From contig NZ_CP100000.1 of the NCBI RefSeq assembly GCF_024138165.1, forward strand, positions 1,488,001 through 1,552,000: a stretch of 64,000 bases of DNA, given 5' to 3'. Below, in pieces: positions 26,543 through 31,418 of the stretch. Position numbers and translations under genes: made by a program. This DNA comes from Halorussus vallis (GTDB taxonomy: Archaea; Halobacteriota; Halobacteria; Halobacteriales; Haladaptataceae). Each line of letters starts with the position of its first letter. Position 1 is the first letter of the stretch. Under the pieces are notes generated by a model. That model saw only the letters and a program-made list of their open reading frames with translations, was not told where the DNA came from and did not search any database.

Positions 26543-27520
26543 CTACCCGACTGGGACGCGTCGTCCGTCCCCGGCCGCGGTGGGCCTCGCTCCTGCCACG
26601 TCGGCGACCGGCGCGCGCCGGTCGCCGACGCGGGTGGCGCTCCCGATTCCGGTGACGTTCCCGTCGCCGGTGGCGTTCGAAGGGGCGGTCGCGTTTGCAC
26701 TCCCGGTGACGTTCCCCTCGGTCGCGTTCGCGCTCGCGGTGACGTTCGGTGCGGCGGTCACCTCCCGCTGTCCCTCGTGGGCCGACAGCCACCGCCGATA
26801 CGTCGCGGGGTCGACCACCACGACCCGCGCCCGCATCCGGGCGTGGCCCTCGCCACAGAACTCCGTGCAATAGGCGCGGTACTCCCCGGTCCGGAGGGGT
26901 CGCGTGCGAATCGTCGTGTTGTAGCTGGGGAACGTGTCCTGCTTGACCCCGAGTTTCGGGACGAAGAAGGAGTGCAACACCTGCGCCGACCTGAGCCTGA
27001 GCGTGGCGTTCCGGTCGCGCGGCAACACGAGCACTCCCTGGGTCGTCACGTTCGCGTTCGGGTAGGTGAACTGCCAGCCCCACTGGTAGCCAAGTACGTG
27101 AACGCGAACGCCCTCGCCTGCGCCCGCACTGCCCGCACCGTCCGCCGGCCCCTCGGGACTCGGCGTCGGCGAGATGTACGGACTCGCGAGCACGTTGTAC
27201 GCCGAGAGGCCGACGAACAGCAACACGATGCCCGTCGCGACGGTCCACGTGATCTCGAGTTGCGGGTTCTCGGCGGTCGGCTCCGGGTCGTCGTTGTCCC
27301 GGAACCGGACCACCGCGTAGACGAGGATGACCTCGACGAACAGCGTGAGCGGCAGCGCGACGTACAGCAGTTGGCGGTTGAGTTGCCCGATGAGGTTGCG
27401 ATTGACCGACTGGGCCGCCGCCGGCCCGACGCCGACGGTCAGCAGCAACGCGGCTCCCAGTGCGACGACTCGCCACCGCCTCGCGGCGCTCTGCAGTATC
27501 GACCCCCGTCGACTCCCCAT
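26543..27520 (-). CDS. coxB: Cytochrome c oxidase subunit II with CuA site and sequon-rich tail
   Basis: Electron entry subunit of the haem-copper oxidase. Signal peptide (about 1-36, ending VGPAAAQS), two membrane segments (about 51-71 and 92-112), then the cupredoxin domain. CuA ligands are all present: His183, Cys218, Glu220, Cys222, His226, Met229 (CTEFCGEGHARM). The external C-terminal tail carries six N-x-T sequons (N259, 265, 270, 276, 282, 288), so it may be heavily N-glycosylated. The ATG at 27520 gives a proper signal peptide; the longer frame does not. Divergent from coxI. Confidence 0.92.
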   Translation of the reverse strand: MGSRRGSILQSAARRWRVVALGAALLLTVGVGPAAAQSVNRNLIGQLNRQLLYVALPLTLFVEVILVYAVVRFRDNDDPEPTAENPQLEITWTVATGIVLLFVGLSAYNVLASPYISPTPSPEGPADGAGSAGAGEGVRVHVLGYQWGWQFTYPNANVTTQGVLVLPRDRNATLRLRSAQVLHSFFVPKLGVKQDTFPSYNTTIRTRPLRTGEYRAYCTEFCGEGHARMRARVVVVDPATYRRWLSAHEGQREVTAAPNVTASANATEGNVTGSANATAPSNATGDGNVTGIGSATRVGDRRAPVADVAGARPTAAGDGRRVPVG

Positions 27521-27577
27521 GGCCCGCGTGTCGACGCCCCCCGACAAGAAACTGCCGTCCGACCCCCCGACCCGAGA

Positions 27578-27684
27578 TTTTAACCGGCCGTGCGTCGACC
27601 CGTGAGTCGAATGGTGGGGGACAGAGGCGAGGCGCGCGTAGCGGAGGCGCCATGAGCGTGGCGCGGACAGCGGAGGCACGATGA
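27578..27684 (+). promoter_or_regulatory. coxI promoter with two coupled mini-ORFs
   Basis: TATA-like TTTTAA at 27578-27583 predicts transcription from about 27608-27611. An ATG at 27611 opens a 14-codon ORF whose stop overlaps, as ATGA, an ATG at 27652; that 10-codon ORF ends in ATGA at 27681, the coxI start. AGCGGAGGC, a Shine-Dalgarno-like site, lies just before both the 27652 and the 27681 start. Looks like a leaderless mini-cistron chain feeding coxI. Confidence 0.5.
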
Positions 27685-29948
27685 ACGCGACGGCGGTCGA
27701 GGCCGGCGGTCTGCTCGCGGTGGTACTCGGCGCCTGGGTCGTCTCTCGGCTGGCCCGAGGCGTCCGGCGCGCCGACGGCGGGAGTTACCGCGACCGGGAC
27801 ATCTCCGTCGACGTCGACTCGCTGTGGTCGTGGGTGGTCCGCTGGACCACGACCACCAACCACCGCGAGATCGGCCTGCTGTACATCGCCTTCGGGACGC
27901 TCGCGGCGCTGTGGGGCGGCGTCGACGCCATGATGATGCGCCTAGAGCTGCTCACGCCGCCCGCCGACGTCTGGAGCGAGAACACCTACAACGCCCTCTT
28001 TACGGTCCACGGGCTGACGATGCTGTTCTTCTTCGTCACGCCCGTCTTCTTCGGCATCGGCAACTACTTCGTCCCACTGCTCATCGACGCCGAGGACATG
28101 GCGTTTCCGCGGGTCAACGCCATCGGCTTCTGGCTGCTGCCGCCCGCGCTCCTGCTGGCTCGCGGCGGCCTCCCCGCCCAGGTGACCGGCCAACTCCTCG
28201 GCCTGCTCGCACCCGAGGTGTTCCCCGGCCTCCTGGAGTTCTTCCGGAGCCTCGAAGAACCCGGCCTCGGCTGGACGTTGTACACGCCGCTGTCGATCGT
28301 CAAGGACAACCCGCAGATCGACTTCCTGTTGCTCGGCCTCCACCTCTCGGGCATCGGCACCGTCCTCGGCGCCATCAACTTCATCGTCACCATCGTCTAC
28401 GAGCGCGGCGAGGGCATCGACTGGGGCGACCTCGACATCTTCTCCTGGAGCATGATAACCACCTCGGGGCTGGTGCTGTTCGCGTTTCCGCTGCTCGGGA
28501 GCGCGCTCGTGATGCTCATTCTGGACCGCAACTTCGGCACGACGTTTTTCCTGAGCCCCGGCGGCGGTCCCATCCTCTGGCAGCACCTGCTGTGGTACTT
28601 CGGCCACCCGGAGGTGTACATCATCTTCCTCCCGGCGACGGGGCTGATGAGCACCATCCTGCCGAAGTTCTCCCGGCGCGCGCTGTTCGGCTTCAAGTAC
28701 ATCGTCTACTCGACGCTCGGCATCGGCGTCCTCTCCTTCGGCGTCTGGGCCCACCACATGTTCGTGACCGGCATCGACCCCCGGATTCGGGCCAGTTTCA
28801 TGTTCGTCTCCATCGCCATCGCGGTGCCCAGCGCCATCAAGACGTTCAACTGGCTGACGACCATCTGGGACGGCACCGTCACGCTGACCGCGCCGATGGT
28901 GCTCTGTGTCACCTCCATCGGGATGTTCGTCGTCGGCGGGGTCACGGGCATCTTCCTCGCGGCGATTCCCATCGACATCCTCTACCACGGCACCTACTAC
29001 GTGGTCGGCCACTTCCACATGATAATCATGGGCATCATCCCGTTCATGATGGTCGCGGCCGGCTACTACTGGTACCCCATCCTCACGGGCCGGATGTACG
29101 ACCGGCCGCTGGCGCTGTTCCAGTCGGTCCTGCTGGCGTTCGGGTCCGTCGTCACGTTCGGGTCGCTCATCGCGCTCGGGTTCATGGAACTGCCGCGCCG
29201 CCACGCCGTCTACCCGCCGGAGTTCGCGGCGCTCCAGCAACTCGCCACCGTCGGCGCGTTCCTCATCGGCATCAGCGTCCTGCTCTGGCTCTACAACATG
29301 ATCTGGTCGTACTGGAACGGTCGACCGGTTCAGACCGCCGACGTGTGGAACCTCAAGCGGACCGAGCAGTTCACCGCCGAGTGGGAGTGGTTCGAAGAGG
29401 AACTGGAGCGCAAGTACGGCGTCGAACCCACCGAACCCGAGACGACCCGGTCGGCGATGGCGACCGAACCCGGCGAGGGGAGCCCGAACGTCCTCCAGGA
29501 GGTCCCCTCGATAGCCTCGGCGGTGACCGACAACGCGGCCGCGGCCGCGCTCGGCGGACTGCTCGGGACGTTGCTCATGTCGGGCGTGCTGTTCGCGGCG
29601 ACCATCCTCGGCGTCTTCGACCTCGCGTCGTTCGCGGAATTGGCTGAACTCGCCGGACTCCCGTCGTCGGTCGCGCTCGGCTACGGCCTGTTCCTCGTGG
29701 GCGGGATGTCGGTGTGGGCGCTACTGTTCGTCACGCTTGCGGCCTTCCTCCCGGGGCGCCCGCTCGTGGTTCGGGGCCTCTCGTACGCGACAATCGTCTC
29801 GCTCGGGTTCATGATCGCCTTCTACACCGGCCAGTCGGGACTCGGACTGGTGGGCTACGTCGTCTTCGTGTTCGTGGCCCACTGGCTCTACGGGTTCGGC
29901 CTGGCGGCAACCATCCAGTCGCTCGCGAACTACAGGAGCCAACGATGA
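27681..29948 (+). CDS. coxA: Cytochrome c oxidase subunit I (haem-copper, A-type) with C-terminal membrane extension
   Basis: Catalytic subunit reducing O2 to water and pumping protons. Haem and CuB ligands are visible in FTVHGLTMLFFF (low-spin haem His), WYFGHPEVYIIFLP (CuB His, cross-linked Tyr and the E of the D-channel), AHHMF, and VVGHFHMIIMG. 755 aa is longer than the usual 550-600: after a charged linker (about residues 570-615) there are four more membrane segments (LGGLLGTLLMSGVLFAATIL, VALGYGLFLVGGMSVWALLF and two more), perhaps replacing a small subunit. An N-terminal membrane anchor precedes WTTTTNHREIG. The stop overlaps a 19-codon ORF as ATGA. Confidence 0.94.
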   Translation: MNATAVEAGGLLAVVLGAWVVSRLARGVRRADGGSYRDRDISVDVDSLWSWVVRWTTTTNHREIGLLYIAFGTLAALWGGVDAMMMRLELLTPPADVWSENTYNALFTVHGLTMLFFFVTPVFFGIGNYFVPLLIDAEDMAFPRVNAIGFWLLPPALLLARGGLPAQVTGQLLGLLAPEVFPGLLEFFRSLEEPGLGWTLYTPLSIVKDNPQIDFLLLGLHLSGIGTVLGAINFIVTIVYERGEGIDWGDLDIFSWSMITTSGLVLFAFPLLGSALVMLILDRNFGTTFFLSPGGGPILWQHLLWYFGHPEVYIIFLPATGLMSTILPKFSRRALFGFKYIVYSTLGIGVLSFGVWAHHMFVTGIDPRIRASFMFVSIAIAVPSAIKTFNWLTTIWDGTVTLTAPMVLCVTSIGMFVVGGVTGIFLAAIPIDILYHGTYYVVGHFHMIIMGIIPFMMVAAGYYWYPILTGRMYDRPLALFQSVLLAFGSVVTFGSLIALGFMELPRRHAVYPPEFAALQQLATVGAFLIGISVLLWLYNMIWSYWNGRPVQTADVWNLKRTEQFTAEWEWFEEELERKYGVEPTEPETTRSAMATEPGEGSPNVLQEVPSIASAVTDNAAAAALGGLLGTLLMSGVLFAATILGVFDLASFAELAELAGLPSSVALGYGLFLVGGMSVWALLFVTLAAFLPGRPLVVRGLSYATIVSLGFMIAFYTGQSGLGLVGYVVFVFVAHWLYGFGLAATIQSLANYRSQR

Positions 29949-30581: not shown

Positions 30582-31418
30582 TCACAGCCGCACCGTCGCG
30601 CCGACATACAGCACGACGACCAGGAAGAGCCACACCGCGTCGACGAAGTGCCAGTACAGCGACACCGTCGAGACGGAGGTGTCTCGTTCTGGGCCGTACT
30701 GCCCCCTCAGCGCCCGTCCGAGCACGATGCCGATGAGCACCACGCCCAGCGCGACGTGGAGGCCGTGGAGGCCGGTCAGGCCGTAGAACGCCGACGCGAA
30801 GACGCCGCTGGTCAGTGTGAACCCCTCCTCGACGACGAACTCGTAGTACTCTAGGACCTGCCCGCCGAGGAAGACGACGCCGAGCGTGAACGTCGCGCCG
30901 ACGAGGCCGACGAAGGTCCGGCGCTTGCCCTCCGCCAGCGCCTCGTGGGCGAAGTGGAGCGTGAAGCTACTGGCGACGAGCAGTGCGGTGTTGACGAGCA
31001 CCAGCGACCCGAGCAGGTGCGGGAGGTCGTCGGGCGACCACCCGTGGGCGCGGACCCAGAAGTAGTAGGCGAACCCCGCGCCGAACGTCGCAACGTCGGT
31101 CACGAGGAACAGCGCCATCGTCGCTCTATAGCCCCGTCGCTCGCGCTCGGAGGCGCTCCCCGCCCAGTAGTCCCGGAGATACGCCTGTTCGAGCCATCCG
31201 AACAGGCCGGTCAGGAGGCCGAGCGCGCCGACGGCGGCGATGCCGACGGCGATTCCGGTCGGGAAGATGGCGGCGGCTCTGCCGGCCAGCGCGAGGGCGG
31301 CGCCGGCGTAGAGCACCCCCGCGCCCGCCGCCGCGACGAACGGCCAGCGGCTTCGGTGGTGTTCCTCGTCGTGGTCACGGTTCTCGGCGGCGTCGGCTTT
31401 GACGTCGGCTCCCCCCAT
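30582..31418 (-). CDS. coxC: Cytochrome c oxidase subunit III
   Basis: Seven-TM type subunit III of the haem-copper oxidase. After a hydrophilic His/Asp-rich N-terminus come hydrophobic segments, with family signatures ALFLVTDVATFGAGFAYYFW, FTLHFAHEAL, LGVVFLGGQVLEYYEF, FYGLTGLHGLHVALGVVL and SLYWHFVDAVWLFLVVVLY, the last being the classic WHFVDxVW of subunit III. A TATA-like CTTTAG lies about 27 nt before the ATG. Convergent with the coxI cluster, 24 nt from the 185-aa gene. Complete at 278 aa. Confidence 0.93.
   Translation of the reverse strand: MGGADVKADAAENRDHDEEHHRSRWPFVAAAGAGVLYAGAALALAGRAAAIFPTGIAVGIAAVGALGLLTGLFGWLEQAYLRDYWAGSASERERRGYRATMALFLVTDVATFGAGFAYYFWVRAHGWSPDDLPHLLGSLVLVNTALLVASSFTLHFAHEALAEGKRRTFVGLVGATFTLGVVFLGGQVLEYYEFVVEEGFTLTSGVFASAFYGLTGLHGLHVALGVVLIGIVLGRALRGQYGPERDTSVSTVSLYWHFVDAVWLFLVVVLYVGATVRL

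Follow-up and report, generated by a model that had tools for sequence, protein, structure and literature searches.

Most haloarchaeal mRNAs start without a leader. For Haloferax volcanii, the accessible part of one study reports that the SD motif does not drive initiation at 5'-UTRs (PMC3986360), and that of a second study reports that overlapping gene pairs are strictly coupled, that the SD motif does not attract ribosomes de novo and that haloarchaea use it chiefly for reinitiation (PMC6728339). Such coupling requires an overlap or a very short gap, and gaps of about 20 nt nearly eliminate it, as described in the available text of PMC10666635. In a synthetic leaderless bicistronic design for Corynebacterium both the start codon of the fore-cistron and the SD were needed, according to the available excerpt of the source (PMC10367133). 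Here we compare with these systems a chain of mini-ORFs upstream of coxI in the window, a 64,000 nt stretch of the Halorussus vallis genome (contig NZ_CP100000.1, forward strand positions 1,488,001 to 1,552,000), together with the corresponding upstream DNA of relatives across the order.

The chain upstream of coxI

The first-pass annotation had placed a TATA-like box, two mini-ORFs, two ATGA overlaps and GGAGG sites ahead of coxI, and reading the sequence confirmed the coordinates of all of them. Scoring used the usual TATA-to-start spacing and SD string. The features, in window coordinates, are:

27578..27583, + strand: TATA-like box TTTTAA of the coxI transcript, aligning with TTTTAT in three same-genus relatives
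27608..27611, + strand: predicted transcript start, from the TATA spacing
27611..27655, + strand: mini-ORF 1, 14 codons, MVGDRGEARVAEAP, predicted to be leaderless, TGA at 27653-27655
27643..27647, + strand: GGAGG, SD-like, 4 nt before the mini-ORF 2 ATG, 5-nt match to the assumed SD
27652..27684, + strand: mini-ORF 2, 10 codons, MSVARTAEAR, TGA at 27682-27684, read in the same frame as the one mini-ORF of the relatives
27672..27676, + strand: GGAGG, SD-like, 4 nt before the coxI ATG, 5-nt match to the assumed SD
27631..27684, + strand: imperfect tandem repeat, period 29 nt, bearing both GGAGG..ATGA units
27681..29948, + strand: coxI, 755 aa, COX1 (aa 64-528) plus DUF6789 (aa 618-752), Pfam PF00115 and PF20587
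26543..27520, - strand: coxB (subunit II), divergent, with an intergenic promoter region in common with coxI, Pfam COX2 and COX2_TM
30582-31418, - strand: separate subunit III gene, from the domain search

One ATGA overlap (27652-27655) joins the two mini-ORFs and the other (27681-27684) joins mini-ORF 2 to coxI, giving the window its stop-start overlap in two steps. No in-frame coxI start was found between the TAG at 27639 and the ATG at 27681, ruling out a longer coxI with an upstream in-frame start. The tandem repeat matched at 20/25 bases, a fit that was equalled in none of 500 shuffles, and because of this repeat the two GGAGG..ATGA units cannot count as independent features. In the window the C-terminus of COX1 is fused to DUF6789; the Halorussus vallis genome also has DUF6789 elsewhere, as a separate frame in the neighbourhood of other cox1 genes. 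On the minus strand, within 27520-27560, a TTTCTT stretch lies about 31 nt before the ATG of coxB, and coxB, with a box of its own, may itself be leaderless.

The chance of such a chain was estimated by fixing ATG 27611 and the coxI start and randomising the intervening bases, with 20000 trials per null model. A coupled chain of one to three steps arose in 3.2% of base shuffles and in 5.7% of first-order Markov sequences. Because chance reaches this level, the local chain alone is weak and only suggestive evidence, and its significance derives from the relatives and not from the local pattern.

The closest relatives differ from the window in a simple way. Among 18 genomes of the genus searched, a full-length coxI match was found in the window's genome and three others. 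In the alignment each of these three relatives carries its TTTTAT box followed by a single mini-ORF (MRGGRTGTPTATGRP, MRGGRTGTPTATGKR and the GTG-started VRGGRTGTPIATGRR), and all end on the coxI ATGA. Compared with the start position conserved in the relatives, the mini-ORF 1 ATG of the window is displaced by one base in the 3' direction, and the segment from the mini-ORF start to coxI is 27 nt longer in the window. In the window the relatives' frame still runs uninterrupted from 27610 to 27684, and the last part of it is mini-ORF 2. The simplest history would be that a one-step mini-ORF gained 27 nt and that the start codon then shifted by one base, with the internal ATGA keeping the coupling. 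Judged by this alignment the two-step chain is the derived form. There may be a sequencing error at the window's start codon. The first-pass annotation had proposed looking for the ATGA chain in related coxI genes and had taken its absence from close relatives as a refutation. The two-step chain was seen in this genome only, and in that form the proposal is refuted; the predicted coupling is present in the relatives and is not.

A single mini-ORF across the order

A search covering 392 genomes of the order returned strong coxI matches in 130 of them. The upstream DNA was read at 88 loci, comprising matches of about 1028 bits or more in 87 genomes, one of which has two copies. With a single rule, a one-step mini-ORF stopping on the coxI start, or no more than a few bases away from it, was found in 83/88 of these full-length COX1-DUF6789 relatives. 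This strongly supports the earlier proposal of leaderless entry on a mini-ORF followed by a coupled, SD-aided start of coxI, although the two-step form in which it was proposed is not conserved. The start codon was ATG in 82 mini-ORFs and GTG in one. The stop lay at +1 (RTGA overlap) in 59, at +4 in 17, at -5 in 4 and at -2 in 3, which is the short stop-start overlap or very short gap of a haloarchaeal termination-reinitiation pair; the TGA-RTG overlap of a mycobacterial coupled leaderless small ORF is found in the +1 class, the other 24 being at -5, -2 or +4. The mini-ORFs were 13-29 codons long, inside the size range of small ORFs (<50 codons), and fell into 11 size classes, showing that length changed many times with the frame kept. 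The TATA-like box lay 30 or 31 nt before the mini-ORF start in 60/83 relatives. In 13 loci this spacing was 40 nt and the mini-ORF is therefore probably preceded by a short leader and not leaderless.

Five of the 88 loci had no one-step mini-ORF, namely the window with its two steps and L131, L134, L135 and L197. No suitable TATA-like box was found upstream of coxI in L131, L134 and L135. L197 is a second full-length coxI copy in genome G300; it lacks a mini-ORF and offers a natural contrast to L177, which also comes from G300.

The single rule was complemented by a frame-blind test that took the first ATG, or else GTG, 27-36 nt 3' of a TATA-like box. A candidate start was found in 78/88 loci and 66 of the 78 ended at the coxI start. 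The 12 failures were the window, four Haladaptatus-type loci, where a nearer out-of-frame ATG was taken, and seven Haloarcula-type loci, where a GTG followed by a stop was taken. With one locus per genus, 19/21 ended at the coxI start (binomial p 8e-8 against one third, for genera that share ancestry and are not fully independent). The two failing genera were represented by the window, which stood for its genus, and by a Haloarcula-type locus; two further genera had no frame-blind candidate start and lie outside the 21. Since the base-shuffle null preserves the frame, openness is all that it tests, and significance was taken from the one-third frame test. Given the frame, openness in 19/21 compared with 13.4 expected and a maximum of 19 in 100000 simulations, and by itself is only mildly unexpected. 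Across the loci start, frame and overlap are kept; length and peptide drift.

The one-step rule was also applied to other genes. It matched 0/323 predicted non-cox genes from the window and 80 relative loci, an approximate figure, since high-GC3 ORFs served to guess where the control genes begin. The mini-ORF script matched 24/72 when cox1-like genes of all kinds were pooled. Among 130 distinct cox1 cores a mini-ORF was found in 47/52 of the DUF6789-fused length class versus 0/78 of the others, using a version of the rule that requires ATG and counts the GTG-started L010 as a miss.

Twenty-two weaker matches (L201-L222), the part of the weaker matches that was covered, were examined apart from the 88. 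A one-step mini-ORF was present in L202 and L204-L207. In L209, L210, L211 and L213 the ORFs were longer (34-36 codons), ended at +4 or +5 and were preceded by weaker AT boxes, and in L201, L203 and L216 an ATGA overlap was seen by eye upstream, the scripted gene start lying too far in. No mini-ORF or overlap was found in the rest of the 22. L204-L207 are unfused relatives of one family, and the mini-ORF in them shows that the element does not depend strictly on the DUF6789 fusion. Two annotated plasmid records give coxI the start used here and carry no gene annotation where the mini-ORF lies. The Haloferax volcanii genome contains DUF6789.

Leader, peptide and proposed mechanism

A TATA-like box was found 26-36 nt before coxI in 0/88 relatives, on which grounds a leaderless coxI was rejected, and 60-135 nt upstream in 85/88. 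The leader of coxI should therefore measure some 35-95 nt, and by its position the mini-ORF should occupy almost all of it. An SD-like match of at least 4 nt preceded coxI in 50/83 relatives versus 31.9 expected from shuffles. Predicted leader RNA structure at the coxI start had mixed signs over 22 loci, with a mean difference of -0.04 and no consistent trend, and a general masking of the coxI start is not favoured by these loci. In four Natrialbaceae-type loci (L137, L140, L158 and L164) the promoter segment that separates the TATA box from the mini-ORF ATG contains an imperfect palindrome resembling GATGGTGAGTCCATC, possibly an operator for an oxidase regulator.

Our preferred reading, to which we assign a probability of roughly 0.8, is that a leaderless fore-cistron, independent of the peptide it encodes, would feed ribosomes to coxI by termination-reinitiation. 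The 5' end of the coxI-DUF6789 mRNA would coincide with the mini-ORF start codon or fall only a few bases from it. Entering leaderlessly on the mini-ORF AUG, a ribosome would read a short and largely arbitrary peptide and terminate at the TGA overlapping the coxI start. That ribosome, or just its small subunit, would then restart on coxI, aided by the SD-like stretch within the mini-ORF. The fore-cistron would in this way deliver ribosomes to a start codon that lies away from the mRNA 5' end and that ribosomes of haloarchaea would not locate via SD alone, the putative purpose being efficient or metered oxidase synthesis. In the window the one-base start shift would put the ORF out of frame, and the second ATGA step would carry the coupling instead. 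We consider it probable, with less confidence than for the mechanism itself, that this is an order-wide natural archaeal fore-cistron specifically of COX1-DUF6789, in which selection acts on start position, frame and overlap and hardly on the peptide, leaderless entry meters the oxidase and the window is a start-codon shift rescued by a second step.

The peptide bears directly on this reading. Change by codon position in Natrialbaceae-type loci was 0.29/0.37/0.40 in the mini-ORF versus 0.25/0.13/0.42 in coxI. GC by codon position was 0.73/0.69/0.66 in the mini-ORF versus 0.73/0.48/0.77 in coxI, without a coding-like pattern in the mini-ORF. No peptide sequence common to different genera was found among the compared mini-ORFs. 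A conserved peptide was rejected on the near-equal change at all codon positions and the lack of relatedness between genera. The codon-position comparison did not reveal purifying selection on the mini-ORF protein sequence, and neither a conserved peptide nor a regulatory codon run, as in an attenuator, was found across genera. Peptides are alike within the Halorussus group and within the Natrialbaceae-type group, where some constraint is possible, as is a weak residual purifying signal within the Natrialbaceae-type and Haloarcula-type groups. The mini-ORFs of L119, L120 and L121 (family f1, genus g2) are equal in length at 29 codons with one peptide very different, a pattern resembling paired indels that preserved the overlap frame. 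As for the first-pass suggestion that the chain could regulate oxidase output, so loose a peptide makes a leader peptide with a sequence-specific role less likely and favours the delivery of ribosomes.

A regulatory leader peptide, in which stalling or slow decoding would respond to an amino acid, another metabolite or the redox state and thereby set coxI translation, is an unlikely explanation but the strongest of the alternatives. The mini-ORF is positioned as an attenuator would be, the Natrialbaceae-type peptides have an MxGDERCGR-like start in common, and cysteine-rich leaderless uORFs of mycobacteria were proposed as attenuators in the part of PMC4633059 available. Against this, the peptides are unlike between genera with little codon-position signal, RNA structure in 22 loci gives no consistent hiding of the coxI start, and the window changed both frame and peptide yet kept the predicted coupling. 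A functional small protein, co-expressed with the oxidase by happenstance, would account for an order-wide mini-ORF with fixed start and stop, but it is highly improbable for products of 13-29 residues that are unshared between genera, lack coding-like GC by codon position and are basic (median pI 10.2, 81% above 7), unlike the Haloferax uORF proteins, which have low isoelectric points according to the accessible text of PMC4983044. Chance, in which coxI mostly begins ATGAAY, any ORF in that frame stops there and the mini-ORFs are unused, is negligible, since although ATG AAY always contains TGA in the overlapping frame and 3-6% of random leaders give a local chain, it predicts one third of genera in frame, against 19/21 observed, and neither an ATG at the leaderless position after a TATA box nor the absence of the element from other genes. 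The anatomy, its conservation, the loose peptide and the absence from control genes are direct observations, and they agree more closely with a putative fore-cistron acting by termination-reinitiation than with either an attenuator or a small protein.

Comparison with known systems

The mechanism is already known from mycobacteria and from Haloferax gene pairs. A literature search judged by titles and abstracts found no report of a conserved archaeal coxI mini-ORF element, and the conserved archaeal coxI case is to that extent without a report in the literature searched. If the proposal is true, a short leader is made usable by becoming a translated fore-cistron for one respiratory gene, and why coxI is not simply leaderless becomes a testable question. 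Searches by peptide conservation or for leaders of at least 150 nt would miss such elements. Small ORFs in haloarchaeal mRNA leaders were described before as Haloferax volcanii uORFs; unlike here, the available part of that study covers only leaders of 150-250 nt and low-pI products, and overlap coupling was no criterion in it (PMC4983044).

The coupled leaderless small ORFs of mycobacteria (Shell et al. 2015, PMC4633059) are similar, as far as the accessible text describes them, in having the transcript start at the small-ORF start codon, which is predicted here, and an RTGA overlap with the annotated gene, and ribosome delivery needing no particular peptide was suggested there too. They differ in being bacterial and backed by RNA-seq and Ribo-seq, whereas the present case is archaeal, concerns one gene across an order and is known from sequence. 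The overlapping pairs of Haloferax volcanii, in the portions available of PMC6728339 and PMC10666635, have ATGA-type overlaps and an SD-like stretch in the upstream frame as here, in the same organism class, but their upstream partner is a full gene, compared with 13-29 codons and a seemingly irrelevant peptide at coxI. The synthetic Corynebacterium design has, like the element proposed here, a leaderless fore-cistron with an internal SD feeding the main gene, as outlined in the excerpt of PMC10367133; that design is engineered and bacterial, whereas the coxI case is natural and archaeal.
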